From an uncultured Methylophilaceae bacterium (GTDB lineage Bacteria > Pseudomonadota > Gammaproteobacteria > Burkholderiales > Methylophilaceae), in contig CAJIZS010000001.1 in assembly GCA_905182075.1 (NCBI GenBank), positions 558,001-622,000 on the forward strand: DNA of 64,000 bases, in the 5' to 3' direction. The translations under genes and the position numbers were made by a program. The notes beneath the pieces are model-generated. The model saw only the letters and a list, made by a program, of their open reading frames with translations, did not search any database and was not told the DNA's origin. Of this stretch, positions 1 to 64,000 are shown one piece after another. Numbering within the stretch: position 1 is the stretch's first letter; every line of letters begins with the position of its first letter.

Positions 1-387
1 TTGTCCGGTTTGACCGGCATCACTATCAAGGGCCAGCTTACCCAATAAAATTAAGTCTGGTTTTTCACGTTCGACTGCAGCTTTTAGTAATTTTGCAACA
101 CCAAGTGGCTGAAGGGACTCTAGAGTTTCTATTAATATGGCACGATCTGCTCCCATAGCAAGACCATGTCTAAGTACATCTTGGTTTTTTGGTCCCCCAA
201 GAGAAATAACAACCACTTCAGAGGCGATATTTTTTTCTTTAAGCCGCAAAGCCTCCTCTAAAGCATTCTCATCAAATGGATTAATGCCCATCTTAATGCC
301 TTCTATATCTACATCGGAGCCATCACTTTTGGGCCTTACTTTTATGTTGTAATCTTGAACTCTTTTGATTGCAACTAATATTTTCAT
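1..387 (-). CDS. etfB: Electron transfer flavoprotein beta subunit, N-terminal part (runs off the window)
   Basis: The first 129 codons of EtfB are present; the 3' end lies beyond position 1. The protein opens MKILVAIKRVQDYN and continues with NPFDENALEEALRLKEK, both typical of the family. EtfB pairs with EtfA to form a soluble FAD/AMP-binding heterodimer that collects electrons from flavin dehydrogenases and passes them to ETF-ubiquinone oxidoreductase, encoded nearby at 1420-3088. The ATG at 385-387 is preceded on the minus strand by AGGAAAG at good spacing, supporting the start. It diverges from a LysR gene across about 110 bases. No frameshift is seen in the visible part. Confidence 0.93.
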   Translation of the reverse strand, partial: MKILVAIKRVQDYNIKVRPKSDGSDVDIEGIKMGINPFDENALEEALRLKEKNIASEVVVISLGGPKNQDVLRHGLAMGADRAILIETLESLQPLGVAKLLKAAVEREKPDLILLGKLALDSDAGQTGQ

Positions 388-499
388 TTTGACTTTCCTG
401 TTTAATTGAAAAGATTATACAGTGTGGATTTACAATTAAATATTGATTATTTCAATGATATATCTGTAAAATAGATATGATATTAATAAAATTCATATT

Positions 500-1420
500 A
501 TGAAATATACATTAAGGCAACTGGAAATATTTGTGGCTGTAAGTAGAGCTGAAAGTGTCTCACGTGCAGCAGAGTTTTTATGTCTATCACAATCTGCGAC
601 TAGTACTTCTCTTGGAGAGTTTGAAAGACAATTTGGTGTGCAACTTTTTGATAGGATAGGTAAGTCATTAAGCATAAATAAAGCAGGAAAAAATTTGTTA
701 CCAAATGCAGTAGAATTATTAGATCGCGCAAAAGAAATTGAATCTAAGCTATTAGGACTTGCAGGTTGTGGCGAAATGCATATTGGGGCTACATTGACAA
801 TTGGTAATTATCTTGCCAACCTTCTCGTTGCTAATTATCTTAAAGAATATCCCGAAAGTAATATAAGCCTTCAAGTTCATAATACGAAGACAATTGTTCA
901 GCAGGTAGCTAATCATGAACTTGATCTTGGAATGATTGAAGGAGATTGTAATCACTCAGACTTACATGTTGAACCATGGGTTGCAGATGAACTTGCTATT
1001 TTTTGTGCCCCCAAACACCCACTTGCAAAGAAAAAAATTGTTCATTTAGATGAATTATTAAAAGAAGCATGGATACTTCGCGAAAAGGGATCAGGTACTA
1101 GGGAGACTTTTGATAGAGCTTTTAAAGATAAAAATCTAAATATTAGATTAGAATTAGAGCATACTGAAGCTATTAAGCGAGCAGTAGAATCTGGTTTGGG
1201 CATTGGCTGTATTTCCCGTCTTGCTCTTAAGGACGCATTTAGACGTGGCAGTTTGGTACCATTAGATGTTCCTAGTATAAAATTAAATCGATTCTTTTAT
1301 TTCTTATGGCCGAAAAAAAAATACCAAACTTCTGGTATGAAACAATTTCTTGCACTTTGTAAGGAAATGACAAAAGGGCTCGAACGAAGTGACCAAGTTA
1401 ATTTACCATTAATACCTTGA
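500..1420 (+). CDS. LysR-family transcriptional regulator
   Basis: Intact 306-residue LysR-type regulator. Residues about 1-60 form the winged helix-turn-helix (LRQLEIFVAVSR, then SRAAEFLCLSQSATS), followed by a linker helix and a type-2 periplasmic-binding-like effector domain (GSGTRETFDRAF, SGLGIGCISRLAL). It is divergent from etfB, and its stop overlaps the start of the ETF-ubiquinone oxidoreductase gene, so it may control electron-transfer flavoprotein expression. That role is inferred from position only. The effector is unknown; the fold resembles CysB/CbbR-like members, but the sequence does not settle a subgroup. No frameshift is seen. Confidence 0.9.
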   Translation: MKYTLRQLEIFVAVSRAESVSRAAEFLCLSQSATSTSLGEFERQFGVQLFDRIGKSLSINKAGKNLLPNAVELLDRAKEIESKLLGLAGCGEMHIGATLTIGNYLANLLVANYLKEYPESNISLQVHNTKTIVQQVANHELDLGMIEGDCNHSDLHVEPWVADELAIFCAPKHPLAKKKIVHLDELLKEAWILREKGSGTRETFDRAFKDKNLNIRLELEHTEAIKRAVESGLGIGCISRLALKDAFRRGSLVPLDVPSIKLNRFFYFLWPKKKYQTSGMKQFLALCKEMTKGLERSDQVNLPLIP

Positions 1421-3088
1421 TGAAAATGAATAAACAACGCGAGATAATGAATTACGATATTTTAATTGTTGGCGGCGGTCCGGCAGGACTCTCTGCGGCA
1501 ATTAAAGCAAAACAATTAGCTCATAAATCAGGCAAAGAAATAAGTGTTTGTTTGATTGAGAAAGGTGCTGAAGTTGGTTCCCATATCTTATCAGGAGCAG
1601 TTATTGACCCAATTGCCTTAAATGAATTAATTCCAAATTGGAAAGAGAAGAATGCGCCCCTAAAAACAAAAGTAACTGAAGATGTATTTAGTTTATTGAG
1701 TAAAGAAAAAAGCTGGAACATACCGCATTGGCTAGTCCCGCCCCTAATGAGTAACAAAGAAAATTATATTGTTAGTTTAGGTGATTTATGTAATTGGCTC
1801 GGCGCACAAGCTGAGGACTTAGGCGTAGAAATATATTCAGGGTTTACAGGACAAGAAGCTTTATTTAACGATAAAGAAGAACTTATCGGTATAGCAACTG
1901 GAGATATGGGAAGGGACTCAGATTTCAAAGAGACAGTAAATTTTGCAGAAGGTATTGAGATTCACGCTCAGTTTACTTTGATTGCAGAGGGAGCAAGAGG
2001 CTCACTTACTAAAATCATTGAAAAGAAACTTAAGTTAAGAGGGAAAGATTGTCCTCAAAAATATGGGTTAGGTTTTAAGGAGGTATGGAGAATTCCAGAA
2101 AATCAACATAAAAGAGGATTGGTTCAACACAGTTTGGGTTGGCCCCTTGACTCTGATGTTGGGGGTGGTTCGTTTATGTACCACTATGGAGAGGGGCTGG
2201 TTTCTATTGGCTTTGTTGTTCACTTAGACTATAAAAACCCATACCTTTCTCCTTTTGATGAATTTCAGCTAATTAAAACTCATCCAAAAATTAAAGAAGT
2301 TTTAAAGGGTGGAGAGCGAATGAGCTATGGGGCAAGAGCAATAAGTGAGGGCGGTATTCAATCATGGTCAGAATTGACGTTTCCTGGAGGCGCATTTATT
2401 GGTTGCAGTGCAGGTATGGTTAATGTTCCGAGAATAAAAGGCACACACAATGCAATGAAGACCGGAATGCTTGCAGCTGAATCTGCTTTTAAATCAATTG
2501 TTGATCCACAAATTAGTACAAATAAAATTTTAAACTCATACCCAGAAGCAATAAAATCATCTTGGGTGTGGAGTGATTTAAACTCGGTAAGAAACGTTAA
2601 GCCTTTATTATCAAAATATGGGACATGGTTGGGAATGTTGTTTGGCGGCACTGAAATGTGGCTGGCCTCATTTAACATTTTCCTCCCCTGGACTTTAAAG
2701 CATAACCTTGCAGATCATGAAACATTGAAAAAAGCTGTTGATAGCAAGGTAATTAAATATCAGAAACCAGACGGTATCTATAGTTTTGATAAATTAAGCT
2801 CTATAGGCTTAAGTAGTATTAGTCACGATGCAAATCAACCGTGCCATTTAGAGTTAAAAAACATATCCATCCCAATAACTTTTAACCTTAAAGAGTTTGA
2901 TTCTCCAGAACAACGTTATTGCCCAGCAGGTGTGTATGAAGTTCAAAAAGAACAAACAATAACATAAATTACAAATAAACTCTCAAAATTGTATTCATTG
3001 TAAAACTTGTGACATAAAAGACCCAACCCAAAATATTAATTGGGTGCCACCTGAGGGAGGGAGTGGGCCAATATATTCAAAAATGTAG
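1420..3088 (+). CDS. Electron transfer flavoprotein-ubiquinone oxidoreductase (frameshifted near its end)
   Basis: Membrane-associated flavoprotein that oxidises reduced ETF and reduces ubiquinone. The N-terminus has the FAD dinucleotide motif [12 protein letters not shown]. The C-terminus carries the cysteine cluster for the 4Fe-4S centre: [10 protein letters not shown], then [12 protein letters not shown] and a conserved WVPPEGG tail. The reading frame is lost near 2955-2970 and recovered in another frame, running to TAG at 3086-3088, so one base is missing or extra. The ATG at 1420 overlaps the lysR stop (ATGA); ATGs at 1426 and 1447 are alternatives, the last closest to family starts. With etfB next door it completes an ETF electron branch into the quinone pool. 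Confidence 0.92.
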
Positions 3089-3169
3089 TAATAAAATTGT
3101 GTATATAACAAACAAATTCAATGTTCTTTCTAGTAGAATGTAAAATAAAATAAAATCTCAAGGAAAACT

Positions 3170-4037
3170 ATGTTTCAAGGCAGTATGGTTGCAGTTGTTA
3201 CTCCAATGAATATTGATGGTTCTCTTGATATAGCGAGCTTTAAAGATTTATTAGATTTTCATATTCAAAACCATACTGATGGTATTGTTGTTGTTGGAAC
3301 AAGTGGCGAAGCACCGACTGTAGACTTTGATGAACATACATTCTTGATTAAAGAAGCAATTAATTTTGTTCAAGGAAGAATCCCTGTAATTGCTGGAACC
3401 GGAGCAAACTCTACGAAAGAAGCAATATTTTTAACAAAGCAATGCAAAAGAACTTGGGGCTTATGCTCTTCTTGTTACACCTTATTACAATAAACCAAAT
3501 CAAGAGGTCTTATTGATCACTTTTATCAATAGCTGAAATTCAGTTGACATTCCTCAAATTTTATATAATGTCCCCTCAAGAACAGCCTGTGATCTTCTTC
3601 CAGCAAGTGTTCAAGTGCTTTCTGAGCATAAGAATATTGTAGGGATTAAGGACGCAACAGGCGATCTTAGCCGTATAGATTATCTAATCGATCAGGTTGA
3701 AAAAGATTTTATTTTTATTAGCGGTGATGACCTGTCCTTCCTTGAATACATGAAAAAAGGTGGAGCAGGAGTAATCTCTGTTACTGCAAATGTAAGACCA
3801 GAACTTATGCATCAAATTTGCAAAGACGCAATAAATAAAAATTTACAACAAGCCGAGTCATTGAATAAAAAGTTAGAAAAATTACATCAAGCTATGTTTG
3901 TTGAATCCAACCCAATTCCAGTTAAGTGGCTTTTAAGCTACCTGGGTAAAGTTAAGCCTTCAATAAGGCTTCCATTGGTCGAGTTAAACACCGATTACCA
4001 TCAAACTCTAATTAATGCTTACAAAGCTTCAGAATGA
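3170..4037 (+). CDS. dapA: 4-hydroxy-tetrahydrodipicolinate synthase, frameshifted
   Basis: Condenses pyruvate with aspartate semialdehyde, the first committed step of lysine and diaminopimelate synthesis. The N-terminal third opens MFQGSMVAVVTPM and has GTSGEAPT. The remainder shows the tyrosine of YNVPSRT and the Schiff-base lysine of GIKDATG. The frame shifts after an A-run near 3437 and again between 3510 and 3550, so the gene is read in pieces, but total length (about 289 codons) is normal. The stop overlaps the bamC start (ATGA), the usual dapA-bamC pair. SD-like AAGGAAA precedes the start. The indels probably reflect sequence error, since the enzyme is normally essential. Confidence 0.93.
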
Positions 4038-5463
4038 AAAATATACTTCCTATAATTTTTTTAATTTTTACCCTAGCTGCTTGTTCATTCGAACCTATTG
4101 CAGAGAAATTTGAAGATGTTTATTCTGAAGTAACTGCTCCAGATTATGTTAATTCATCAAAATCAGAAAAACTTCAGGTTCCACCTGATTTATCTGAGTT
4201 TGAAGCTTCAGGCTCTTATGGTGTTCCAGGCGACGCGACATCGTATAAAGATTTCAATGATACTAAAATACTAAAACCAAAATTAATCAAGGTAATTGAT
4301 GATCCTCAAGGTATTCATTTGGTTAAGTCAGGAAATCTAAGGTGGCTAATTATAAAAAAAGACCCCGATACGATCTGGCCATTCCTTGAAACATTTTGGG
4401 AAAACATGGGCTTCACGATCAAGAAAGTTAATAAAAGAATGGGAGTAATGGAAACAGAATGGATAAGAGCTGATGATGTTACGGGTGATAATTCTATGGG
4501 GATGGGTCAGAGGCTTGATAAGTGGTTGGATGATATTGGTGGAAAAGAAGATAAGAGGAAGTTTAGAACTCGTATTGAAAGAGGGAGGCAGGTTGGAACA
4601 ACTGAAATTTATTTATCACATCGAAGACAAGGTACCGAAGGAGCTCGGCTTGAGGAAAGGCAAAGAATTATTGATGCGCAAGTCTCGCAATACACTACTA
4701 ATGTTTATCAAATCGAAGAATATAAGGGAGGCAGTGGAAAAGACAACGGAGATGGCGTACCTTTTAATGCAAAAACTGAAATTAAAGATTTTGAGATCAA
4801 CTCAGAAGTATTAAGAAGACTAATGGTTTATTTGGGCGTTGCTGACCTAGATGCAGAACAGAAGTTTAAAAACCCTAAGGTTATTCAAAAAGCAGAATTA
4901 GTTGAAGAATCTGGCTCTGTATTTGTAAAACTTGATGACCCATTCGATAGGTCATGGAGAAGGCTTTCTATTGCTTTAGATTTAATAGGCTTTGTAACTG
5001 AAGATAAAAATAGAAGTGAAGGGGTCTTTTATGTAAAGTATAAAGATCTTGATTTTGAAAATAATAGACAAAGATGAGGAAGCTAATGGCATATTGGACA
5101 CTTTGGTCTTTTGGGATGATGATGGATGAGGATGATCGAGTCACATCTACACCATACGGAGATATTAGAAGTAAAAGCAATAAAAAAGAAAAGCAAGAGG
5201 ACGAAAAACCAACTGTGAATGCACCCGGAGATGCGTTAGGAATCTTTAATGATAGCGATGCTGGGGCAACGCCAATCTGGAATTTTGATCTTTGGGGATC
5301 TGATGAAGAAGAAGGCCTTGAGTCAGGTGAAAAAAGATATCGAATTAAGTTAATTGGAAGTGAAGAGGGATCTAAGGTTTATGTTGAGTCAGCTGATGGA
5401 GTTGTTAATAACAGTCGTGCTGCAAACGCTATAGTTAATATACTTTTTGAACACCTTCAATAA
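4034..5463 (+). CDS. bamC: Outer membrane protein assembly factor BamC, frameshifted
   Basis: Lipoprotein subunit of the BAM complex that inserts beta-barrels into the outer membrane. The signal peptide ends in the lipobox LAAC (mature Cys17). The conserved unstructured stretch with LQVPPDLS follows, then two helix-grip domains (LRWLIIKKDPDTIWPFL; DDPFDRSWRRLSIAL). The frame shifts at about 5070 and the second domain resumes to end near ...VNILFEHLQ. At about 476 residues it is longer than the roughly 340 residues of Escherichia coli BamC, partly because of an acidic, lysine-rich low-complexity stretch in the C-terminal third. It is translationally coupled to dapA. Confidence 0.88.
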
Positions 5464-5523
5464 CAATAAAATTTTTTATAGAAAATTATAAATACCTCAC
5501 AAAAAAAAAGATAAAATCCTAAT

Positions 5524-6532
5524 ATGTATTCTATTATCCGACCATTATTATTTAAACTAGACCCTGAGTTATCTCACCATCTGGCAATGAAGACTTTCAA
5601 GCTTCTCCATGTGTTTGGTTTGTTATACTTTGTTAAGGAGCCAAAGACCTCGCCTAGGGTTGTTATGGGGTTAAAGTTTAAAAATTTAGTAGGTTTAGCT
5701 GCTGGGTTAGATAAAAATGCGGAATATATTGATTGTTTGTCTAAGCTTGGCTTTGGTTTTATTGAGATAGGAACAGTTACTCCTAACCCCCAACCAGGAA
5801 ATGAAAAGCCAAGATCTTTTAGGTTAACAGAAGAAGAGGGAATTATTAATCGCTTTGGGTTTAATAATGTAGGGATACATCAGGTAATTAATAATATCAA
5901 GAAATCAAGTTATAAGGGTGTCTTAGGAATAAATATCGGTAAAAATTTCAACACTAAGATCGAAAATGCAGTACAAGACTATTTAATTTGTTTTCATAAG
6001 CATATGCCTATGCAAGCTATATTACAATTAATATATCTTCACCAAACACAAAAGGTTTAAGAGACTTGCAACAAGGTAAGTATTTAGAAAATTTGCTTAA
6101 TAAGACAAAATATTTTTTAATCTAAATTCTGCAGAAACTAATAAAGAAATTCAAGAAATTGCAATTAAAATATCTCCAGATAATAGCGAGAGAGAATTAA
6201 ATATTATATGTAATTTATTATTAAAATATAAAATAGATGCAGTTATTGCAACTAATACCTCGGTCTCAAGAAAAGAAGTTATTAATTCAGTTTATGTGAA
6301 GGAGGAGGGCGGGCTTTCTGGAAAACCTCTACAAAAAAAATCTCTATCGACAATAAAGTTTCTTCATAATAAGCTAAATGGAAAGATACCTATTATTGGG
6401 GTTGGAGGAGTGATGTCAGTTGATGATGCAAAACAAAAAATTAAATACGGATCTGAATTAATACAAATTTATTCTGGTCTAATTTTCAAAGGCCATCGAT
6501 TAGTTCATGAAATATGTCGAGCAACCAACTAG
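5524..6532 (+). CDS. pyrD: Dihydroorotate dehydrogenase, class 2, frameshifted
   Basis: Membrane-bound, quinone-linked flavoenzyme of pyrimidine synthesis. The N-terminus shows the class 2 amphipathic helical extension ([17 protein letters not shown]). The FMN barrel follows with [63 protein letters not shown] and IIGVGG. The frame changes near 5990-6010 and again near 6110-6130, so three segments must be joined. Total length of about 336 codons matches the family. The 3' end overlaps the next gene by 26 bases. Confidence 0.93.
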
Positions 6533-7149: not shown

Positions 7150-7150
7150 G

Positions 7151-9375
7151 TTACTTTAAGAGTATTTTATCATCTTTTAATGCACTATCAATTTCAACTC
7201 CACCATTAGCAAGTTTACCAAATAAAGTTCCTCAGCAAGGGTTTTTTCAACTCTTGCTGGATGAGCCGGGCCATAGGTCTTGCCCCCATTTCTTGGTCAT
7301 AGCCTTTTTCTCCAAGCCATGCCCGAGCTTTTTCACTGACCTGAAGGTGCACTTTTTTATCTGTCCAACTGAACCTGCAACTCCACCAAAAACTTGTCAA
7401 CAACGCCTAAAATAACATCCTTTGAAAGCACGTTCAAATTGGATGATGTCATCTAATCTGTTTCTAAACTCCGGAGAAAATATTCTCTTGATTTCTTGTT
7501 GCTCATCACCCGAATTTTTACTTTGAGTGAAACCAAAATTTGCTTTTGATAACACCTCCGCTCCGGCGTTTGTTGTCATGATGATTATCGTATTCTTAAA
7601 GTCAATTTTTCGACCTAAACCATCCGTCATGTGTCCATCATCTAGAACCTGTAACAAAAGATTAAAGACATCAGGGTGCGCTTTTTCAATTTCGTCAAGT
7701 AATAGTACACAGTTAGGATTTTTATTAATCTGCTCTGTTAGGATTCCACCTTGATCGTAACCAACATAACCCGGGGGGGCCCCAATTAATTTAGATACAG
7801 AATGCCTTTCCATATATTCACTCATATCAATACGAATAAGCTCAATTCCCAATATGTGCTAATTGCCGCGTAACTTCAGTTTTACCCACACCAGTTGGGC
7901 CTGTAAATAAAAATGCACCTGTAGGACGCTCAGGGTGCCCTAGACCAGATCTGCCCATTTTGATAGCCGAGGACAAAGTTGCTATGGCTTCATCTTGTCC
8001 AAAGATGACATGTTTAAGATTCTTTTCAAGGTTTCTCAGTGTATCTTTATCTGTGTCATTAACTGTTTTGGCTGGTATCCGGGCAATCTTTGCTACTATT
8101 GCCTGTATATCATTCACCCCAATCATCTTCTTACGTTTAGACTTAGGTAAAATACGCTGAGCAGCCCCAACTTCATCTAAAACATCTATAGCTTTATCTG
8201 GTAAAAATCTATCATAAATATAACGGGATGATAAATCAGCCGATAAACGTAATGCTCCTGGTAAAATTTCAACATTGATGGTGGTCTTCAAGGTGAACCT
8301 TTAAACCTTTAAGGATATCAATTGTAGTTTTAACACTTGGTTCTTCAATATCTATTTTTTGAAATAGTAAAATTACCATCAAAATCTGTTATAGAAACAG
8401 CATATCCCTGGTAAGTTGTTGCACCAATGCATTTAATTGTTCCTCTAGCAAGAGCAGGTTTTAAAATATTTGATGCATCAAGCGTTCCTCCACTTGCAGC
8501 ACCTGCTCCGACTATTGTATGAATTTCATCTATGAATACAATTACATTTGGTGCGTCTTAAGCTGTTTAATAACAGTTTTAAGTCTTTGTTCAAAATCTC
8601 CTCTATATTTAGTCCCTGCAATTAGGGCACCTAAGTCTAAGGAATAAATAACCATATTTTGCAAAACTTCAGGGATAGTTTTGTCTACAATTTTTTTTGC
8701 TAGTCCTTCTGCTATAGCAGTTTTTCCAACTCCAGCCTCACCAACAAGCAAAGGGTTATTTTTCCTTCGACGACATAGTATCTGAACAACTCTCTCCACT
8801 TCTGAGTCTCTACCAATTAAGGGGTCAACCTTACCCTCAGCAACTAATTTATTAAGATTTATTGTGTAGGTTTCTATTCCCTTGGAAGTTTTAGAGCTCA
8901 CCTCAGCTTCTTCTTGAGGCGGATTTTTTTCTTGGTTGTCACCCACCCTTTCTATTCCGTGAGCTATAAAGTTAACAACATCAAGTCTGGTTATTGCTTG
9001 CTGTCCAATAAAGTAAACAGCATGAGAATCTTTTTCACCAAATATTGCAACCAAAACGTTAGCACCAGTAACTTCTTTTTTACCAGAAGATTGAACATGA
9101 AGCATTGCTCTTTGAATAACTCTTTGAAATCCTAGTGTTGGTTGGGTATCAACTTCTTCTGTCCCGGAAATTAAAGGGGTATTTTCTTCAATATGACCAG
9201 AAAGCTCTTTTCGTAATTTCTCGAGATCTGCTCCACAGGCTTTTAATACTTCAGAGGCTGATGGATTATCAAGCATAGCTAACAAAAGATGCTCAACTGT
9301 TATTAGCTCATGGCGCTTTTGTCTAGCGTCCATAAATGCCATATGTAAACTAACTTCTAATTCTTGTGCAATCAT
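7151..9375 (-). CDS. clpA: ATP-dependent Clp protease ATP-binding subunit ClpA, several frameshifts
   Basis: AAA+ unfoldase of the ClpAP protease. Visible in order: the N-domain ([19 protein letters not shown]), the first AAA module (Walker [14 protein letters not shown], Walker [10 protein letters not shown]), the second module ([27 protein letters not shown], the ClpP-contact region, sensor PEFRNRLDD) and the tail [14 protein letters not shown]. At least four frame changes occur, near 8560, 8370, 8290, 7850 and 7400. About 42 bases at 8375-8418 encode a Bacteroidetes receptor-like stretch ([10 protein letters not shown]) instead of the native segment before FQKIDIEEP. Overall length, about 741 codons, is normal. 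A clpS remnant precedes it, as expected. Confidence 0.95.
8375..8418 (-). other. Foreign-looking patch in clpA (carboxypeptidase-like receptor domain motif)
   Basis: The minus strand reads [15 protein letters not shown] in place of the EYRxxFEKDxALxRR segment expected between GATTYQ and FQKIDIEEP in ClpA. The TDFDGNF motif is typical of the N-terminal carboxypeptidase-regulatory-like domain of Bacteroidetes TonB-dependent receptors. The patch rejoins ClpA in a different frame. I read it as chimeric sequence rather than part of the enzyme. Confidence 0.5.
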
Positions 9376-9383
9376 AAATTAAA

Positions 9384-9515
9384 CTATATCTTTTCTATAA
9401 TACATTGCAAGGGGTGTTGTGATTCTTTTGATAAATTTAATACTTGATTCATTTTAGTTTCTGCAATCTCACCTGATATATATTCTGTAAATCCCAATAA
9501 ATTAAATATTTTCAT
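9384..9515 (-). pseudogene. clpS: ClpS adaptor remnant (C-terminal third only)
   Basis: A 43-codon frame whose last 30 residues match the ClpS C-terminus (SGEIAETKMNQVLN, then HPLQCIIEKI). ClpS binds the ClpA N-domain and delivers N-degron substrates. The N-terminal two thirds, including the N-end-rule binding pocket (NDD motif region), are missing. The distance from this stop to the next gene at 9691 would have accommodated a full-length clpS of about 100 codons, so the 5' part looks replaced rather than deleted. It lies directly upstream of clpA, the usual order. Confidence 0.7.
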
Positions 9516-9690
9516 TAAAAATAATAAGTTAAATGTTAGGCATTTTATTAAAAACTCTTTGTATTACTACCAAAGCGGTACAACTAATCATTTAGAATTA
9601 TGACTTTATATATACTAGGAAGTTTAGGTTTTATTTTTGTTTCTTTTAATGTATTCTTTAGCTTTTTTAATTATTTTGGTTTTTTTTCAA
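9516..9690 (+). other. Gene-less stretch, apparently a foreign gene junction
   Basis: This is where the N-terminal part of clpS should be. Instead the plus strand reads the end of one frame (YYYQSGTTNHLEL, stop near 9602) overlapping by ATGA the start of another (MTLYILGSLGFIFVSF, very hydrophobic), which dissolves into the 3' end of the next gene after 48 codons. It looks like the boundary of two coupled genes from elsewhere. I do not recognise either partner. Confidence 0.35.
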
Positions 9691-10959: not shown

Positions 10960-10968
10960 AGTGATTAA

Positions 10969-11897
10969 TTATAAATCTATATTATCTTTATTTTGATTTG
11001 TTTGAGTTACAGCTAAATTATTTTGATTTGTGCCAAGCCAAATGGCCATAGGACAACCAACCATAATTGAAGAATAAATACCAAATAAAATACCAATTGT
11101 TAGAGCCAAAGCAAAATTATGTAAAATTTCACCACCAAAAATTAACATAGCAATTACTACGGTTTGAGTTGATAGGTGAGTCATTATTGTTCGTGACATT
11201 GTTCTTGTTATAGCGTTATTAACAACCTCAGTAACCTTTGCTTTTCGCATTTTTGGCGATCTAAAATTTTCCCTTACTCTGTCAAATACTACTACTGACT
11301 CATTTACAGAGTAACCAAGTACAGCTAGTACCGCGGCTAAAACTGTTAAATTAAATTCCCACTGGAAGTAAGCAAAGAAGCCTAATATTATGATTACGTC
11401 ATGAAGGTTTGCAACAATCGCTGCTACAGCAAATCGCCACTCAAATCGTAGCCATAAATAAACCATTATCCCCAAGCAAACAAATAATATAGCAAGTGCA
11501 CCATCTTCATAAAGCTCATCACCAACTTGTGAGCCTACAGATTCGACTCTTTTAATCTCAACTGAGGAATCTTTTATCCGAAGTGCGCTTGCTACTTTTT
11601 CAGATAAATCAGCAATTGATAAATTGTCAGTTAATGGAAGTCTAATCAATGCATCTTTAGAAGTTCCAAAATTTTGAACTTGTGAATCCTTAATATCAAT
11701 TTCATCTAAAGTCGATCTAATGCTTTCTATGTTTATGGATTTACTTAATAATAAGTGTATTGTTACTGAGAAGATCGATGGCTCATCTTTTCACGTAAAG
11801 AGAAATAAAACTGATTTTTCATACTTTAAATCAGGCTCACAGAAGTTTTTCTGTAACTCATAAAGGGTATATCTTTTTTTACTCTAAAAATTTCCAT
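10969..11897 (-). CDS. secF: Protein translocase subunit SecF, N-terminal part disrupted
   Basis: Integral membrane partner of SecD that uses proton motive force to complete protein export. The C-terminal 226 residues are clean (GVNESVVVFDRVREN is present as GYSVNESVVVFDRVREN; TRTMSRTIMTHLSTQ). The start MEIFRVKKDIPFMSYRK is in another frame. Between about 11740 and 11855 the sequence does not encode the expected first transmembrane helix and DFTGG motif and contains stops in all frames, so this stretch is either badly read or foreign. SIRSTLDEIDIKDSQVQNFG then resumes the family sequence. It is downstream of secD with a 3-base gap. Confidence 0.88.
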
Positions 11898-11900
11898 AAT

Positions 11901-14124: not shown

Positions 14125-15196
<1,072 letters not shown>

Positions 15197-20643: not shown

Positions 20644-20687
20644 ATTTTTTCTGTTAGGTTTAGAACTTGTCTAAAATACCCAACAAT

Positions 20688-20767
20688 AATCTTTTACTTG
20701 ATAATTATCTTGATGGAGCTATAGAAGCAGAGGCTGATGCTATTTGTGATGGAGAGGATGTTTATAT
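20688..20767 (+). other. Carbamoyl-phosphate synthase large-subunit-like fragment
   Basis: About 26 codons read LLLDNYLDGAIEAEADAI then CDGEDVYI, matching the ATP-grasp segment of CarB (YLxxAIEVDVDAISDGxxVYI), normally followed by GIMEHIEEAG, which is absent here. No start or stop is associated. It occupies the place where the 5' end of the MarR-family gene should be. Likely a chimeric patch. Confidence 0.5.
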
Positions 20768-20814
20768 AAATTCAAATTGTAGGAGATGCTTTCTGAAGTT
20801 GTTCCACAATTAAT

Positions 20815-21141
20815 ATCAAAACTAAAGGCATTAAAGCAACAGAAATTGGAGTTGCTTTAAAGCTTGATTTACCAACAATCACTCCAATTCTCCAAAGACT
20901 AGAAGCTCTTAATTTTATAGCTCGTGAACGCTCTAAGGTCGATGAGAGGGTTGTCTTAATTAAGTTAACAAAAGAGGGTTTAGCCCTTGAAGAAAGCATT
21001 GCAGATATCCAGCATAAAGTTGCATGTAAGACTCATCTTTCAGAAATTGAGTTTAAGAGGCTTAAGGCTACATTAAATGACTTAACTGATGCTATGGAAA
21101 TAAACGCAGAAGACCAAATTTTATTAAAACAGTGTAAATAA
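20815..21141 (+). pseudogene. MarR-family regulator, C-terminal two thirds only
   Basis: A 108-residue frame without start codon. It shows the recognition helix and wing of a MarR winged helix (GVALKLDLPTITPILQRLEAL, then ERSKVDERVVLIKLTKEG) and the C-terminal dimerisation helix. The pattern is closest to OhrR-like members, which sense organic peroxide through an N-terminal cysteine, but that part is missing. The 5' third is replaced by unrelated sequence including the CarB-like fragment. A terminator follows immediately. Confidence 0.72.
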
Positions 21142-21147
21142 AAAAAA

Positions 21148-21163
21148 GCTATGTTTACATAGC
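21148..21163 (+). terminator. Bidirectional intrinsic terminator between marR remnant and globin gene
   Basis: GCTATG-TTTA-CATAGC forms a perfect 6-bp hairpin flanked by seven A residues on the left and a CTTTTTT run on the right. It can serve the plus-strand gene ending at 21141 and the minus-strand globin gene ending at 21205. Confidence 0.75.
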
Positions 21164-21204
21164 CTTTTTTAAAGTTAAACCCTTATTTTAATGGTTTATG
21201 TAAA

Positions 21205-28937: not shown

Positions 28938-29767
28938 TCAATTATTCTGAGAATTTTTTTTTGATGCTTCAATAGCATTATTTAAAAAATCTGCTTTCAT
29001 TGTAGAATTAGAGTCCAAATTTTGATCAACAAATATTTTAATTGATTATGGCATCATTAAAATAAGAGTCTAGAATATTACGTGCTAATTTAATTGATAT
29101 TGGCTTGCCTATTTTTAGTGCATTTTTATCCAGTTCATTTACTAAATAAGATATCGAAGCAAATGATCTTTCCATTCGTTCTAAAAGATATGTTATAACT
29201 TTTGGATCGATTGCTATTTGGCGATCATTAAATTGTTTGATTAATACTGCGTTCAATAAAATATCATCAGGTGATTCTAATTTAGCAACCGATGTACCTT
29301 GAATACGGCTAAGCAAATCTTACCCACAATTATTGGAGCATGTTTTTTTTGCCCAACCGAGTTTATTAGTATGTTGTTAAGCTTTGCTTCAGAGACTCTA
29401 GTGAACCAAAATGATTGTTTTGGCATTGATATAATTTTATTATCTATTTTATATGAAGTTAAGAACACAATAGAGATAGCATAACTTTAAATAAATTTGA
29501 TAAGTTATTTTATTTGTAAATATATGCTTATTAATAGATTTTGTTTGATCTACATTGCATTCCCACTAAAACTCTCTCCATCAAGATTTACTGTATAATT
29601 TCCAAATTTTTTATCTGAAATTATTTCGTCTTGAACAATAATTAAATCACCGAGTTTAAATCCATACTTTAGGTTGATAATTGAATTGTTCGTATCGTAG
29701 GTTTCTGCTGATACAGTAAAGTTATAAAATACTAAAAAAGTGTTAAAATTACAAATAAGGAAAACAT
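28938..29767 (-). CDS. mxaA: MxaA-like protein, interrupted by an Hda-like segment and frameshifts
   Basis: Starts with a signal peptide (MFSLFVILTLF, then after a shift LVFYNFTVSA). The following YGFKLGDLIIVQDEI and PKQSFWFTRVSEAKLNNIL with APIIVGKIC fit MxaA, a periplasmic/inner-membrane methanol dehydrogenase maturation factor. At about 29322 the sequence switches to the C-terminal half of a DnaA-like regulator, and after its stop at 29038 a short stretch (KIFVDQN, MKADFLNNAIEASKK) resembling an MxaA tail ends at 28938. Total length about 277 codons is plausible for MxaA, so native sequence seems replaced rather than interrupted by an insertion. Identification relies partly on gene order. 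Confidence 0.65.
29038..29322 (-). other. HdaA-like (DnaA-related regulator) C-terminal fragment inside mxaA
   Basis: About 94 codons including a natural stop. DLLSRIQGTSVAKLESPDD, LLNAVLIKQFNDRQIAI, YLLERMERSFASISYLVNEL and ALKIGKPISIKLARNIL match the lid and C-terminal part of the AAA+ domain of alphaproteobacterial HdaA, the regulator that inactivates DnaA-ATP. The N-terminal Walker motifs are absent. The wording (MERSF, PISxxLARxIL) is alphaproteobacterial rather than beta- or gammaproteobacterial. Best read as chimeric sequence. Confidence 0.7.
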
Positions 29768-34052: not shown

Positions 34053-34664
34053 TTAATTAATCCTGATCATTAATTCATTACGTCGAAAAAACGGTAATGT
34101 CCATGGTGGATTGTATCTAGCAATTTGAAGTGGACCAAGCGTTGTTAAATTTTTATTTTCAATAAAATTATAAAGTAGTCTAGCCTGTTTGTTGTAGCTT
34201 AACTCTCGAACTACTCCCTTTATATATAGTTGTGGTATCGTCGGCCAATCACTAAAAATTTTTATATTTTTATCATTAGGTTTTGGTAGTGTATTTAATG
34301 TGTACTTTTTTGGCATTATAAAAGATACCTTCCATTTTGTATTTTCACCTTCAGTTATAACAGGCGCTGTCATATCAATCAGCTCTGATAAAGGCTGCAT
34401 TACAACAGGCGCTGTCATATCAATTTTTAAGCTACCACCAGCACCGTTATTGTTTCCAAATATATAGTTTGCAAGTACTTTGAATCCTTTAGATGATGCT
34501 TCATCAAAACCACCTATCACAGAAATTTGAGCTATAACTTTTGGTTCATATTCCCTTATTTCAAGATTATTATCTTTAAAAGCTAAATTAAATTCGGGTT
34601 CATCAGCTGCCATAGAAGAGTTTAAAAATACTAAAAATAAAGTTAAAAAAATTGATGATTTCAA
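34053..34664 (-). CDS. SOUL-family haem-binding protein, exported
   Basis: Intact 203-residue protein. The signal peptide (FLTLFLVFLNSSMAA) is followed by the SOUL domain: LEIREYEPKVIAQI, GFKVLANYIFGNN, KIDMTAPV, WKVSFIMPKKYTLNTLPKP and FIENKNLTTLGPLQIARYNPPWTLPF. KIDMTAPV recurs as LIDMTAPV, as in the family. SOUL proteins bind haem or porphyrin; bacterial function is unclear. Convergent with the small basic protein gene. Confidence 0.9.
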   Translation of the reverse strand: MKSSIFLTLFLVFLNSSMAADEPEFNLAFKDNNLEIREYEPKVIAQISVIGGFDEASSKGFKVLANYIFGNNNGAGGSLKIDMTAPVVMQPLSELIDMTAPVITEGENTKWKVSFIMPKKYTLNTLPKPNDKNIKIFSDWPTIPQLYIKGVVRELSYNKQARLLYNFIENKNLTTLGPLQIARYNPPWTLPFFRRNELMIRIN

Positions 34665-37835: not shown

Positions 37836-39016
37836 TATTTTTCCGTTACAATAACCTTATTTTTTTTAAAAATCAATTTAGTTTTAGCTTTATCTAACTC
37901 AAAGCTTTATGAAGCGCTTTACTGCTTATAACGATTTTTCTTCCAATATCACAGAAATTTTTATTTCACTTGTTGAGATAGCACTGATATTAATACCTTC
38001 TTCTGCCAGAGTTCTGAACATTTTACTTGCAACTCCAGGATTTGAACGCATACCGACACCAACTATAGATAATTTTGCAATTTCATTGTTCGGTATATTT
38101 CTCGTGCATTGACATGAGCCTTTACTTTTTTATCAAGAATATCTAAGGTTTTTGTCATATCGGTTTTGTGAACAGTGAATGTCAAATCTATTAAACCATC
38201 TTGTCCTATATTTTGAATAATCATATCTACATCATATTTTCTTAATTGAACCTAATATTTGATAAGCTACACCTGGCATATCAGGCACTCCTAACACTGT
38301 AAGTTCTGCTTCATCTTTTACAAAAGCAATTCCTGTTATAACTGGATCTTCCATATTCTTTTTTTCCTCAAAAGTAATAACCGTTCCATCTCCATTAGCT
38401 GAAAAGCTTGATAGAACTCTTAATTTAACTTTATATTTCATCATTTCTAACAGAACGAGTTTGAAGAATTTTGGACCCCTGACTAGCCATCTCTAACATT
38501 TCTTCAAATGTTATTGATTCAGATGTCGTTCTCACTGAACCATCTCTTGGATCTGTTGTATAAATTCCATCGACATCAGTATAAATTTGACATTCTTCTG
38601 CACCTAAAGCTGCCGCTAATGCTACTGCAGTTGTATCCGAACCGCCTCTTCCTAATGTTGTAATATTGCCATCTTTATCAGCTGCACCTGTGGCAAAGCC
38701 AATAATTAATAATAAAAGAGGTATGAAAATTTCGCTCATTTTTTTTGTAAGAATTTTTATGAATTTATAAAGGTAACTAATGTATTTTAATCTCTCAATA
38801 TAAAACGTTTCAAATCCTTATTAAACTGTATGGTTTCTGAAGGGAATAAAGTATTAAAACAGCCTAATTTAATAAGCTTATTTGGTGTATCGAAATGGAC
38901 TTTATCTTCTGTCATTACTATCATTTTGCCGGAAACCTGTATGGCTAAATCTATCTCTTAATCCTTTCGGGATTCGCGACAGATGTACCTCCAAATTTTT
39001 GAACAATTATTGCCAT
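37835..39016 (-). CDS. lysC: Aspartate kinase, frameshifted, with an internal segment replaced
   Basis: First enzyme of the lysine/threonine/methionine branch. The start [20 protein letters not shown] is canonical. [34 protein letters not shown] and [17 protein letters not shown] follow from 38690 down. Two ACT domains close the protein ([42 protein letters not shown]). Between about 38955 and 38690 the expected sequence is absent: one frame there ends with a stop and another begins [15 protein letters not shown], like a gene boundary. Frame changes also near 38450, 38250, 38100 and 37915. In pseudomonads lysC also follows alaS. Confidence 0.9.
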
Positions 39017-39026: not shown

Positions 39027-41613
<2,587 letters not shown>

Positions 41614-45701: not shown

Positions 45702-46434
45702 ATGAATAATCCTTTTCAATAACTGATATACCTTTTTCGATGCATTTATCGATCATCTGATGATCAATCTCCACACCATAACCACAAATATTTTTTGTAT
45801 TGATTAAATCTTTTAGTAAAGAGCCATCGCCACAACCAAAATCAATGACCTTGCTTCGAAAAGGAACCCAGTCTGTAATAATTGCTATGATTTGATGGGC
45901 TATTCTGGGTTCACATCTTTAAACTTACCTCATTCATTAGCTGTTGATTTTGGTAAAAAAATAAAAGCTGATTTAGTTTTAATGTATGACCGTCAAATAA
46001 ATGGTTCAAGTAAAGCCTCGAAGTTCAAGGCGGCAAGACAAAAAGCCATCGCTGAAAATAGACTTAAGACCACTGGTAATGTAACAGAAATTGAAATTAC
46101 AGAATCAGATTTAGCTGACCCAAATGTTCGGTTTGATTTTTATACTACCTACTGGGTGAAATTACCTAAGCCAACCTTTGGCACTCATTTTATTAAATTA
46201 AAAGGAGGGGAAGACAAAAAAGCTATTGAAGGAGTTCAAGTCATAGCTGTGATAGAAAATTCTCCTGCTCACAAAGCGGGGATTTTAAAAAATGACAGCA
46301 TAAACTCAATCAATAACATTAAGGTTGATACTCCAGATGACCTTATTAAAGTGATTCGATTAAATAAAGGCAAAGAAGTTGAGGTAACCTATAAAAGGAA
46401 TGGTCAAATAAATAAGGTCTTGGTGGCTCTATAG
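45702..46434 (+). CDS. PDZ-domain protein, N-terminal part replaced
   Basis: The clean part (from about 45892) begins GYSGFTSLNLPHSLAVDFGKK and IKADLVLMYDRQ, then YTTYWVKLPKP, and ends in a PDZ domain (VIAVIENSPAHKAGILKND, VDTPDDLIKVIRLNKGKEV). Related proteobacterial proteins are exported with GYSSF near the N-terminus. A plausible original start with AAAGGAA is at 45702 (MNNPF), after which about 185 bases on the other strand encode part of MetW. The gene is convergent with yjgA. Function unknown. Confidence 0.72.
45706..45890 (-). other. MetW-like methyltransferase fragment
   Basis: Sixty-one codons on the minus strand read IIAIITDWVPFRSKVIDFGCGDGSLL, then GYGVEIDHQMIDKCIEKGISVI, the opening of MetW (IxxWIPxGSRVLDLGCGDG, GVEID). 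No start, no continuation. It interrupts the 5' end of the PDZ-protein gene, beginning just after GAATAATCC. Likely chimeric. Confidence 0.65.
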
Positions 46435-46435
46435 G

Positions 46436-51381: not shown

Positions 51382-51391
51382 AATTTATTTT

Positions 51392-53371: not shown

Positions 53372-53373
53372 TT

Positions 53374-54500: not shown

Positions 54501-54524
54501 GCTTTTTTTTTGATTTATTAATTA

Positions 54525-55690: not shown

Positions 55691-55749
55691 ATTAAATTAA
55701 ATATAGCTAGAATTTTTTGAAAATATTTACTATTCATTGATTATGTTTG

Positions 55750-56290: not shown

Positions 56291-56357
56291 AATTTTCCTT
56301 TATCATATTCTACCTTAACCTAGTTTAATTAACGTTTTTATAACTTATAATTGATAA

Positions 56358-57131: not shown

Positions 57132-57138
57132 AATTGAC

Positions 57139-57171
57139 AGGGCCAATATAAGTTTTATAGTAATTGGCCCT
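57139..57171. terminator. Hairpin between convergent murI and ilvE
   Basis: AGGGCCAAT at 57139-57147 pairs perfectly with ATTGGCCCT at 57163-57171 around a 15-base loop. It lies between the stops of two convergent genes. It lacks a long T-run, so it may act as a hairpin RNA end more than a classic intrinsic terminator. Confidence 0.6.
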
Positions 57172-57177
57172 AGTATC

Positions 57178-58113: not shown

Positions 58114-58211
58114 AATATTCCTTTAGTTATAATAAAATTCTATCTTTTACTCATCTTCAATATAGTTAACTTAGCATGATAAAATGAAAAACAACATTTG
58201 AGAAATTTACT

Positions 58212-58781
58212 ATGAAAAAAAAATTATTAATTATCATTGCAATAGCATTAATTGTTGCATGTTCAAAAACAAATGAGTCTAACTTTAATGGCTCAGATAT
58301 TACACTAGCTAACCTAGATTCTGATTTTAATTTGACTGATCATAATGGAAATAACAGGTCAATAGCTGATTTTCGGGAAAAGGTTGTTGCAATATTTTTT
58401 GGATTTACACACTGTCCAGATATTTGTCCTACGTCAATGTTAGAACTTAAAGCAATTAAAGCGGAATTAGGGGTAAATGAAAATGAGCTACAAGTTCTAT
58501 TTATCACCGTAGACCCAGAAAGAGATACAGTCGAGGTACTCAATGAATATGTTCCATCATTTGACAAAGCATTTCTTGGTCTAACTGGGAAGGAAGCTGA
58601 TATTAAAAAGGTTGCACAGCAGTATAAGGTATTCTTTCAAAAAGTAATCGATGGAAGTAGCTACACAGTGGACCATTCATCAGGAATATACCTTATTGGT
58701 AAGGACGGTAGGGTTAGGATTAGGCACCCTTACGGGTCACCACCAAATTTAATTGCTGAGGATATTCTTAAACTAATTTAG
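58212..58781 (+). CDS. SCO1/SenC-family lipoprotein (copper delivery to cytochrome oxidase)
   Basis: Intact 189-residue protein. Lipobox region LIVACSK (Cys17). The thioredoxin-like domain has the copper-binding CxxxC (THCPDICPTSM), ITVDPERDT and the distal histidine in YTVDHSSGIYLI. SCO proteins load the CuA site of cytochrome c oxidase. Overlaps the ygjP stop by 4 bases, tail to tail. Confidence 0.94.
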   Translation: MKKKLLIIIAIALIVACSKTNESNFNGSDITLANLDSDFNLTDHNGNNRSIADFREKVVAIFFGFTHCPDICPTSMLELKAIKAELGVNENELQVLFITVDPERDTVEVLNEYVPSFDKAFLGLTGKEADIKKVAQQYKVFFQKVIDGSSYTVDHSSGIYLIGKDGRVRIRHPYGSPPNLIAEDILKLI

Positions 58782-59498
58782 TCAATTGAGTAAAGCTCCA
58801 GCCCCCTTTCTTTAAGAAATTTTTCATCAGCTTTGAATTTGGGGCATAATTTTTCAACTTCAGCCCAAAATTGATCTGAATGATTCATAAACTTTAGGTG
58901 AGCCAATTCATGACATATTACGTAGTCAATTACTGACGGACTCGCTTGAATTAACCTCCAATTTAATCTCACTTCACTCTTACTATTGCAAGTTCCCCAT
59001 CTTGTTTTTGCATTTGATAAAAAAACTGCACGTGGCGATAAGTCATGCTCTTTAGAAATTTCTTTCACTCTTTGGTTAAAATATTCTAGTGCTCTATTCT
59101 TAATCCAATTTTTAAAACAAAAACTTGATTCGCAAGCAATTGAGGCTTCAAAAAAATAATGCATTATTTTTACCCCAAATAATATTTAAACTATCAGACT
59201 TAATTAAAATTATTTCAATTTGCTTACCTAAAAATTTGAATTTTTCTTTATTTTTTACGACGAGTTTTTTAGGAACAGATAACACAAGTGAAATTTTTTT
59301 TTCAATCCACTTTTGTTTTGTTTTTAATAATTCATTGATTCTATTTTGAGACATTAGTAAGGGAGCATTAACTGTCAGTCCGTTTTCAGTAACCCTCATT
59401 GATATTGTCTTTCTATTTCTTTTAATCAATTCATAAATAATTGGTTTTTCATCAGAAAACTGCAGTTTAATATTCTTTTTTACAATAAAATTAAACAT
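58778..59498 (-). CDS. M48-like metallohydrolase YgjP (DUF45), frameshifted
   Basis: The N-terminal half (YELIKRNRKTISMRVTENGLTVNAP) and C-terminal half (RAVFLSNAKTRWGTCNSKSEVRLNWRL, VIDYVICHELAHLKFMNHSDQFW) match the YgjP/YgjP-like metal-dependent hydrolase family; HELAH plus a downstream His are the zinc ligands. The frame shifts at about 59155 (the two frames overlap). Overlaps plsC by 8 bases. Exact substrate uncertain; UTP pyrophosphatase activity has been attributed to YgjP. Confidence 0.9.
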
Positions 59499-60156
59499 TA
59501 AGTTTTAGCATCTCATTCTCAATCCATTCTTTTGCTTTTCTGTTAACTGTTACTGCAGATAGATTTTTTGTAATTATCACTGGCCCAATTGAAACCTGTA
59601 TTACACCTGGCTTTTTAATAAATGAATTTTTTGGCCAATAAAATCCTGCATTGTGAGCAACTGGAATTATATTTAAGTTTGCTTGAGTAGCAAGCCATGC
59701 TCCGCCTATATGATACCTTCCAATTTTTTTTGGTTTAATTCTTGTACCTTCTGGGAAGATTGTGATGCAGAACCCTTTTTTAACTCTATCTAGTCCTTGT
59801 TTAAGCATATGCTCTAATGATTTTCTACCATCACTTCTATTAATTGCTATTGGCGAAGTCATTGCTAGCCCCCAACCAAAAAAAGGGATCCACAGTAACT
59901 CTCTTTTTAATACCCAGACTTGCGGCGGAAATATTTCTTGAAATGCTAGTGTCTCCCATGCTGACTGATGTTTTGAGAGAATCATAAAAGAATTTTTTGG
60001 GAAAGATATGGAGATACGCTTTAGTTAAATTTAACTTACGAAATTTTAGCCAAAATAATATTTAAATATTACAATTTAAATAATTTTGTATCTCAAAATT
60101 GCTGTAAATGGAAAAGTCATTATTGCTAGGATAAAAAAAGGGACAGTAAATACCAT
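59491..60156 (-). CDS. plsC: 1-acyl-sn-glycerol-3-phosphate acyltransferase, 5' part disrupted
   Basis: Makes phosphatidic acid. MILSKHQSAWETLAFQ carries the HX4D-like active-site motif (here HQSAWE), and FCITIFPEGTRIKP is the second substrate motif. The membrane-embedded N-terminus (MVFTVPFFILAIMTFPFTAILRYKII) is in another frame, with about 100 poorly readable bases between. Start ATG at 60154-60156. Part of the glyQ-glyS-gmhB-plsC-ygjP operon. Confidence 0.9.
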
Positions 60157-60167
60157 CCCTTTAAATT

Positions 60168-60724
60168 TTAATTTAGTAAAATCTCAGCAATTATTTTTAT
60201 GCGATCACCTTGACGGTATGCATCACTTAAATTATTGAAAATCCAGGTGTTTTTAGGGTATTGATTTGTCAAAATTGTTTGCTCCCCGTTTCCTGTTTTT
60301 ACTAGTATTGGTTGAGCTTGAACTTTATCGAAAGCGAGTAAATCTCTTTGAGAGTCGCCAACTGCTGGTATGTCTTTTAAAGAGACATTATAGTATTCAT
60401 TAATTTGATTTAATAATCCAGTTTTTGGTTTTCTGCATGCGCAGTTATCTTGGTCGGTATGAGGGCAATAAAAAAATTTATCAATGTGACCACCTAATGC
60501 CTTTAATGTAATAGAAATCTTTTCGTTAATTCCGTTAAGTGCAGCCATATCATAAAGACCCTTACCAATCCCAGCCTGGTTTGAAGCAATAACAACTTTA
60601 AATCCATTTTTATTAAGCCTTACTATTGATTCAAGACTTCCTGGAATAGGAACCCATGGGAAATATCATTTCTATAGTAAGGAATATTAATTACACCATC
60701 TCTATCAAACAATACAGCCTTATT
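60168..60724 (-). CDS. gmhB: D-glycero-beta-D-manno-heptose-1,7-bisphosphate 7-phosphatase, frameshifted
   Basis: HAD phosphatase in LPS heptose synthesis. KAVLFDRDGVINI is motif I, VVIASNQAGIGKGLYD motif II, and the zinc-binding CPHTDQDNCACRKPKTG block and AVGDSQRDLLAFDKV follow. The frame shifts near 60625 and 60550; about 50 bases after motif I (YYRNDISHGFLFQ) deviate from the family. No start codon is visible: the glyS frame runs directly into it without a stop, so a base or more is probably missing at the junction. Confidence 0.92.
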
Positions 60725-62757
60725 ATAGCCAATTAATTTTGAAATATCTGCAACACTATTTAATGCTAAATAGAGTTGGTTAAGAAGTGAGTGACGGTTT
60801 GATTTTACTTTCTTATTTTCTGCGTTAACCATGACCTTGTCAAAAAAATTATCAATTGGATTTTTTAATTCCACAAGAATATCTAAAGCCTTAAAGAAGT
60901 CTTTATTTTCAATAGATGCTTTTATTTTTGTATTTTTGATTCAGAAACCTTTTCAATTTCAGCTTCCTCTTCAAGAAGGGTTGTATTGACAGGTTCAATT
61001 ATGATTTCATCATACTTCTTTAAGATATTTCTTACCCGTTTGTTAGCAGAAGCTAAATCTTGTGATTGGGTTAGTTTTGTAAATGAACGTCAATCCAAGT
61101 TCTCTTGCTGCAGCGGAAAACCCAGACAACCTTGCAGCAGCTTCAAATGTTCTTAGCCAGTTTAGATTTATATTCGTATTCATAGATAAATTTAATTAAT
61201 AATAATTTTTCCCGCTCATTTTCTGAAGGAATAAATTTATTAATAATTTCTATAAAGTTTAGGGGAATATTTTTTTCAATAATTATTCTTATAATACCTA
61301 TTACATTTCTTCTTAATCCAAATGGATCCTTGTCACCAGTAGGAATCTCATTAATAGAAAATAAGCCCAATTAGAGTTTCAAATTTTTCTGCTAAAGCAG
61401 CATAGTTACCAAATGTATCTCTTGGTAGTGAATCACCTGAAAATTTTGGCTTGTAATGATCTTCAATAGCATTTACAAATTCACTTGTTTCGTTAAGTTC
61501 AATTGGCATAGTATCCACCCATAATTCCTTGAAGTTCTGGAAACTCACCAACCATTTCTGAAGCTAAATCTGCTTTGGACAATAGAGCTGCTTCTTTTGC
61601 TACAGAAGCATCTACATTAAAATGAGTTGAAAAGAAATTAGAGATTTTAGAAATTCTTAATGTTTTAGCTTATTATGGTAAATAATTGATGAAAGTTTAG
61701 TTGCAAATGACTCTAGCCCTTCTTTTTTATCTTGATCAAAAAAGAATTGAGCATCAGCTAATCTAGGACGGATTACTTTTTCGTTTCCCTCAATAATATT
61801 TTTAGTATTTTTAGGAAGATAGTATTTTTAGGGACAAAGTATTTTTAGTTGGATGAAGATGGAAAAAGAAATACTTTTGATTTGATTTCAAAGGATTTAA
61901 GATAATTATCAATATTTTTAAGAATTTTTCTTCAAATTCCCCGATTAGTATATTAGGTGACTCCACCGAATGATGCTCCAATTGAATGGGATGCATCTTC
62001 AATTATTTTAAATTTATCATCTTGTGAAGAAAGGTATTTCACAACTGAAATACCTCGTAAAGTATTACAATTCTCAAAATTAACAATAACTTTTCCAATT
62101 TCTAATAGCTTTTTTTCGTAATTATTAGCATGATCAATTTTTATTAAAGGAAGGTCTGAGTCAAACCTATGACCTATTGTCTGATTGTTCGATTCCATTC
62201 CATAAGCTTTTATTTTAAGAGTTTTACTCCCATGCATTATTAATAAGTTCTTAATAGGCCTTACAAAATTTACTGTTGTCCAGCCATCATTAAGCTGATA
62301 TGTCATCATTTTTTTAATTGGTAATTGATTGAGGCTTTTAGTAATGATTTCGGCAAGTTCATTTTCAAGTTTCTCACCAACAAATTCTTTTTGAAGGAAT
62401 AGTACCTCTTCATCCCTTTCTTTTTTTTGCACAATATTTTCTAAATCTTTATATGACTCGCCTAATGAATTAAGTTTTTTTATAAGAGCTTGTGTCGGTT
62501 TTTTATTTTCATCAAAACCAAAATCTGATCCTGGTATTATTAAAATATTATTTATTTTAGCTTGCTCCTTAACTAAATTTATTCTTGCACCTATTCGCCT
62601 AGGGGTTGAATAAAAACTTAATTAACTGTACCGCACGGATTTCAGTACATCCTAGTTTACTTGCAATAAACTCAGAAAATTTTAAACCCAGCTCCTTCTG
62701 TGAACTTGGTGGGAGTTCTTCTGTAAGCAATTCAATTAAAAGATTCTCTATTTTCAT
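60725..62757 (-). CDS. glyS: Glycine-tRNA ligase beta subunit, many frameshifts and two foreign patches
   Basis: Beta subunit of the heterotetrameric bacterial GlyRS. Visible: [152 protein letters not shown] and [24 protein letters not shown]. Start overlaps the glyQ stop (ATGA). Patches at about 61964-62070 and 61085-61178 encode parts of other proteins. At least eight frame changes. Total about 677 codons, near normal. Confidence 0.94.
61085..61178 (-). other. LysR helix-turn-helix-like segment inside glyS
   Basis: The minus strand reads [18 protein letters not shown], then [11 protein letters not shown], the N-terminal helix-turn-helix of a LysR regulator ([23 protein letters not shown]). 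It stands where GlyS should continue after [11 protein letters not shown] and shares bases with it (AACTGGCTAAGAAC). No continuation into QxAVSxQI follows. Confidence 0.6.
61964..62070 (-). other. DegT/DnrJ-type aminotransferase-like segment inside glyS
   Basis: Continuous with GlyS ([10 protein letters not shown]), the frame changes identity to [36 protein letters not shown] is the signature around the PLP-binding aspartate of DegT/DnrJ/EryC1/StrS sugar aminotransferases. The GlyS sequence resumes as [13 protein letters not shown]. Probable chimera. Confidence 0.55.
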
Positions 62758-63677
62758 CTTTTATCACTTTTTTTATTTAATGAATTAATTACTTCCCTTG
62801 AGTGTTCGGAGTCAGCAAGAGGGAACCCAAGTTTTTTTCTACTTTGAAGATAAGAGTTAGCAACTTCTCTGGAAATTTTTCTAATTCTAGCGATATAATC
62901 AGCTCTTTCTGTGACACCTATAACTCCTCTCGCATCCAGTAAATTAAATGTGTGTTCCACTTTTAGGATCAATTTCAGGTTCGCCTAGAATATGTTTACA
63001 TTCAGCCTCTGCATCTTCAAAGTGTTGAAGTAGAATACTCGTATCTGCTACATCAAAGTTCCATCTTGAATACTCTTGTTCTGTTTGACGAAATACATCT
63101 CCATATTTTAATTCAATAATTGAACCAGGAGAATTAAATGGCATGTCCATTACATGATCCACACCTAAAACATACATTGCTAATCTCTCAAGCCCGTATG
63201 TAAGCTCACCAGATACAGGCTTACAGTCATGCCCACCAACTTGTTGGAAATATGTGAATTGTGATACTTCCATACCATCGCACCAGACTTCCCAGCCAAG
63301 CCCCCAGGCTCCTAATGTAGGACTTTCCCAGTCATCCTCAACAAATCGAATATCATGCAATTCCATATCAATTCCAATTGCACTCAATGAACCCAAATAT
63401 AATTCCTGAAAGTTTTTTGGACTAGGTTTGATTATAACTTGATATTGATAATAATGTTGCAACCTGTTTGGATTTTCACCATATCTTCCATCTGTTGGAC
63501 GCCTTGATGGTTGGACATAAGCCGCAGCCCAAGGTTTTGGACCCAATGCTCTCAAAGTAGTTGCTGGATGAAATGTCCCTGCGCCAACCTCCATATCGTA
63601 TGGCTGCAAAATAGCACACCCTTGCTGAGCCCAATAAGTTTGGAGATGCAATATAATATCTTGGAAACAAGGTTCAT
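62754..63677 (-). CDS. glyQ: Glycine-tRNA ligase alpha subunit, frameshifted
   Basis: Catalytic subunit of bacterial-type Gly[45 protein letters not shown]-type opening (seen in blocks), [61 protein letters not shown] and [19 protein letters not shown] are diagnostic. One base is off just after the ATG at 63675-63677, and another frame change lies near 62960. It overlaps glyS by 4 bases. Length about 308 codons fits. Confidence 0.95.
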
Positions 63678-63734
63678 AATTTTAGCTTTAAAGTTATGTA
63701 CTATTTTACTGCTTTTTTAAGCCACCTCAAAGAA

Positions 63735-64000
63735 TTAGATATTAAGAAATAAATTATTTAATTTTTTTTTTATGAAAATGAAATAAATGTAAAAAATTGG
63801 AAATAATAATATTGAAATAGATATTATAAAAATTGGGATGTTGGTAAAAAAAGTGTAAGGAGTACGGCCTTCATACCCTTGAACCGTTTGAGTTAATATA
63901 CCGGACACAAATTGCGGTAATTCTTTTAAAATCTTCCCATCAACATCAATAAAAGCGGTTACACCTGTGTTTGTAGCCCTTACCATCATCTTTCCTGTCT
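63735..64000 (-). CDS. lnt: Apolipoprotein N-acyltransferase, C-terminal part (runs off the window)
   Basis: The last 88 codons of Lnt, which adds the third acyl chain to lipoproteins in the inner membrane. MMVRATNTGVTAFIDVDGKI is the end of the nitrilase-like domain, followed by VQGYEGRTPYTFF and a terminal transmembrane helix (PIFIISISILLFPIFYIYF). The gene starts beyond 64000. lnt upstream of glyQ is the common betaproteobacterial order. Confidence 0.88.
   Translation of the reverse strand, partial: TGKMMVRATNTGVTAFIDVDGKILKELPQFVSGILTQTVQGYEGRTPYTFFTNIPIFIISISILLFPIFYIYFIFIKKKLNNLFLNI

Follow-up and report, generated by a model that had tools for sequence, protein, structure and literature searches.

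Metagenome-assembled genomes can hold chimeric or contaminated contigs, in which sequence of several organisms stands in one contig. The window analysed here, a stretch of 64,000 nucleotides (bases 558001-622000 of contig 1 in a genome of 1,107,123 bases and 2 contigs), likewise mixes organisms in a single contig; here, however, patches of about 50-700 bp replace the native sequence, which then resumes, and the contamination score of the genome is only 2.1%, at a completeness of 47.36%. A second parallel comes from long-read assemblies, in which indel errors fragment genes, as described in the Kastor article (PMC12007338). The same frameshifts and stops break genes across the present draft, whereas indels of that kind alone insert no other organism's sequence into genes. 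The Fram Strait study behind the SAR86B isolate FRAM18_bin313 corrected its long reads with FMLRC (PMC8254474); this use is a useful parallel, and nothing ties the window to that study. A limited literature search found no paper describing such sub-gene patches. The best explanation of the window, to which we give a probability of roughly 95%, is a low-quality consensus patched with sequence of co-occurring organisms, and we have very high confidence that the features of this contig are an artefact in general.

The window is collinear with same-genus relatives, and the aligned DNA pieces are about 64-75% identical. Judging from its mxa genes and small genome, we take the source to be an OM43-like methylotroph of the Methylophilaceae; most gene names used here are likewise presumed, in part after an earlier reading of the sequence. 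We aligned the proteins of five relatives to 50 window genes (44.6 kb) with a frameshift-aware protein-to-DNA method, and found 109 frameshifts in these 50 genes, compared with 2 in 63 genes, 3 in 62, 8 in 68 and 5 in 68 for four relatives (G019, G018, G003 and G016, respectively) under the same alignment. At least three of the five relatives agreed on 88 frameshift sites, including sites in genes recognised as recA, alaS, glyS, clpA and secD, and many agreed sites hit genes that no cell is expected to lose. As their sequence stands, none of the genes recognised as alaS, glyS, recA or secD could be functional. Fragmentation was seen in all nine 20-kb stretches of the genome that were tested (three in the window, six elsewhere): open reading frames of at least 250 amino acids cover 0.08-0.45 of their sequence, whereas the cover is 0.47-0.86 for the 26 stretches taken from relatives. 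Random indels are a product of some sequencing platforms. The frameshift sites in the window showed no homopolymer enrichment (0.24 vs 0.34 at random), and so point to no particular platform.

To locate replaced sequence, a two-state model was run on alignment columns that are conserved in the relatives. It gave 46 low-match runs in the window and similar totals in the controls (39, 38, 40 and 44), so that only long runs are informative and short ones mean little. After exclusion of a gene cut by the window edge (46 to 45 runs), 10 of 45 runs had at least 14 lost conserved columns, compared with 3 of 39, 3 of 40 and 2 of 44 in the controls compared (G019, G003 and G016, respectively). These ten long runs sit in secF, tgt, lysC (three), alaS, the PDZ gene, plsC, glyS and glyQ; low-match runs were also found in phr, panD and leuA. 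In a separate plain DNA comparison with 11 relatives, in which uncovered stretches of at least 60 bases were counted, 16 such stretches (12,208 bases) were covered by none of the relatives. Five fall at patches (20656-21202 before marR, 28943-29341 in mxaA, 38683-38956 in lysC, 39442-39703 in alaS and 60910-61227 in glyS); among the others are accessory genes and stretches beyond the range taken for comparison. Taken together, profiles, lost conserved columns and uncovered DNA confirmed at most of the named places what the earlier note had claimed, that foreign segments stand inside native genes. Its statement that gene lengths stay near normal held approximately: the lengths are near native, although most patches fall a little short of the sequence that they replace (lysC, 262 nt for about 345; alaS, 253 for 294; glyS, 98 for 120).

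The following segments gave a match to a donor protein or lineage, a weak one for the DegT-like motif:

45709-45883, minus strand: fragment of a SAR86 metW in the N-terminal part of the PDZ-domain gene (DNA 174/175; PF07021, E 9.7e-17)
29041-29319, minus strand: HdaA fragment in mxaA (NF006571, E 2.7e-21; within the uncovered 28943-29341)
20691-20768, plus strand: CarB fragment before marR (NF003671, E 7.2e-6; PDB CarB, E 0.0035)
15066-15134, minus strand: MetRS knuckle in tgt (N-terminal part), with SPEEL at the join (NF001100, E 1.7e-5; PF09334, 0.0018)
61088-61183, minus strand: LysR helix-turn-helix fragment in glyS (PF00126, E 3.1e-6; 14 conserved columns, 0 matched)
61965-62020, minus strand: DegT-like motif in glyS, weak (PF01041, E 0.19)
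62962-63668, minus strand: glyQ stretch nearest family f67, of another class, with native sequence resuming in the 3' part (DNA identity, protein bins)

The MetW stretch is the clearest and strongest foreign patch. The fragment lies antisense to the PDZ gene that it replaces, and 174 of its 175 bases equal metW of FRAM18_bin313, without an indel. Among the best 80 of 87 related loci in public genomes, the FRAM18_bin313 protein is 98% identical to the patch and the next 88%, while of 24 same-genus relatives 22 have a MetW that matches it at 40-50%, and one same-order genome reaches 58%. A source within the genome itself was ruled out, as it holds no second copy of the patch; a 26-residue MetW match on contig 1 (430678-430755) is probably the broken, frameshifted native metW.

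Profile searches bore out the HdaA, CarB, MetRS and LysR readings of the earlier note as well, and left its DegT reading with a weak match only. The CarB fragment was without a match in Pfam, and the tgt patch matched 4 of 20 conserved columns. The HdaA patch is nearest to f67, which we take to be the Rhodobacteraceae (Alphaproteobacteria): among 171 matching genomes (398 searched), the nine best all belong to this family, with a best identity of 61%. A near-exact donor in f67 was rejected for this patch, with 1 of 18 genomes matched (79% over 70 bases). The glyQ patch, about 700 bp long, was absent from the earlier list and is larger than any patch there. Its DNA is 74.6% identical to f67 genome L158 over 710 bp and 76.1% to L154 over 615 bp, compared with 69.7% over 502 bp for the relative G019 and 65.5% over a longer stretch for G018. 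In 120-base bins, f67 proteins were ahead from 63000 to 63600 and relatives at the 3' end (G018 29/40, L158 2/11). A 41-residue part of the patch found matches in 105 of 398 genomes of the phylum, and the 26 best besides itself were all f67, up to 72%. Near-exact f67 donors for glyS and glyQ were likewise rejected, the best DNA identity among 394 f67 genomes being 76%.

Further replacements were located by the loss of native sequence, and had no donor match:

38700-38956, minus strand: lysC patch (three runs, with 7 of 57 conserved columns matched; uncovered 38683-38956)
39469-39713, minus strand: acidic patch in alaS (60 conserved columns, 11 matched; uncovered 39442-39703)
about 11739-11843, minus strand: secF patch (22 conserved columns, 3 matched)
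9498-9586, minus strand: clpS patch (gap between two tblastn segments, and frame reading)
8345-8398, minus strand: receptor-like motif in a short replaced piece of clpA, weak (1 of 10 conserved columns matched)

For lysC and alaS, native sequence has been lost as had been claimed, and profile searches with both stretches returned no family match to name a donor. For clpS, the tblastn gap and the reading frames speak for a replacement; at clpA native residues are replaced, and the weak receptor motif had no Pfam match. Several candidate sources were rejected. The genome holds no second copy of the lysC patch. SAR86 genomes matched lysC and alaS in 16 of 18 cases, in pieces of 25-79 bases that were mostly native conserved ones; one piece, 71% identical over 73 bases, falls in the alaS patch. 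As a near-exact donor of the two patches f67 failed, with 1 of 18 genomes matched, in native alaS. A 20-base repeat at 34360-34430 was discarded as a join, being a native internal repeat within one gene that is also present in G018. Among the SAR86 and f67 genomes searched, a near-exact DNA donor was found for the MetW patch only.

The frameshifted backbone, the near-identical SAR86 patch and the presence of at least two donor lineages in the window (SAR86, and family f67 of another class) support the view of the earlier note that the contig is a chimeric consensus rather than biology, and the patches look like assembly mistakes. Its donor flavours fared unevenly: the alphaproteobacterial one is consistent with glyQ and HdaA, both nearest f67, a family presumed to be alphaproteobacterial, whereas the only donor that matches almost exactly is gammaproteobacterial (SAR86). 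No Bacteroidetes donor was shown, and the Bacteroidetes-style signal proposed for trpS found no confirmation in a plain translation of the gene. The contig probably stems from error-prone long reads at sparse coverage. Such reads of a small-genome marine bacterium would give a low-quality, indel-ridden consensus, into which a correction or polishing step may have set sequence of co-occurring organisms by weak local similarity. We infer here a low read depth, and foreign reads that were placed by alignment or by seeds; on whether mis-placed sequence entered at this particular consensus or correction step our judgement is evenly balanced. Resemblance of each patch to the replaced native sequence was compared with 300 dinucleotide shuffles. 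The alaS, MetW and HdaA patches resembled the native sequence beyond shuffles (score reached by 0/300, 8/300 and 22/300, respectively; one relative only for HdaA), and the score of the MetW segment was reached by 347 of 22,388 SAR86 windows. No such excess appeared for lysC (98/300) and LysR (241/300), or for trimmed secF (84/300) and trimmed tgt (132/300).

The joins bear on how the foreign sequence entered. If a k-mer graph correction such as FMLRC had passed from native to donor k-mers and then returned, accurate foreign patches of near-native length would be expected, as found, and the study behind the donor genome did run FMLRC on its long reads, with no link from the window to it. At the two SAR86 joins, however, no more than about 3-10 bases are common to the donor and the native sequence as reconstructed from relatives, and the roughly 20 identical bases of such a walk were not seen, which favours foreign sequence mis-placed during consensus building or correction and leaves the graph walk improbable. 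Amplification chimeras that arose by template switching and entered the assembly are a little less improbable, and still unlikely: joins at short shared words agree with them, and the homologous glyQ could have switched through PCR recombination, but with an insert that lacks homology, such as MetW, the switch would twice have to find its way back to the corresponding native position, and the patches come close to the length of what they replace. Recombination in a living cell with mosaic genes has in its favour that the donors belong to real marine lineages; the fragments are non-homologous and partly antisense, lie in genes recognised as essential and accompany many frameshifts. With essential genes broken, living recombination is very unlikely, and we give it hardly any credence.

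The patched consensus that we favour matters for the use of such genomes, as this one is the species representative in the collection searched, and mining it for fusions, transfers or pseudogenes would be misled. Its contamination score gives no warning, and mixing inside genes can escape such scores. It is possible, though we lean against it, that sub-gene foreign patches arise systematically when sparse long reads are corrected with community sequence; if true, such patches would seed species-representative genomes, escape contamination scores and mimic horizontal transfer or domain fusion.

Two minor observations concern other genomes. The same-genus genome G014, in about 6 contigs and at 50% completeness, may have similar faults. 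In addition, a contig under the label Arcobacter (NYWO01000046.1, genome L072) encodes a MetW that shares 67% identity with the SAR86-type query, a sign of probable mis-binning.
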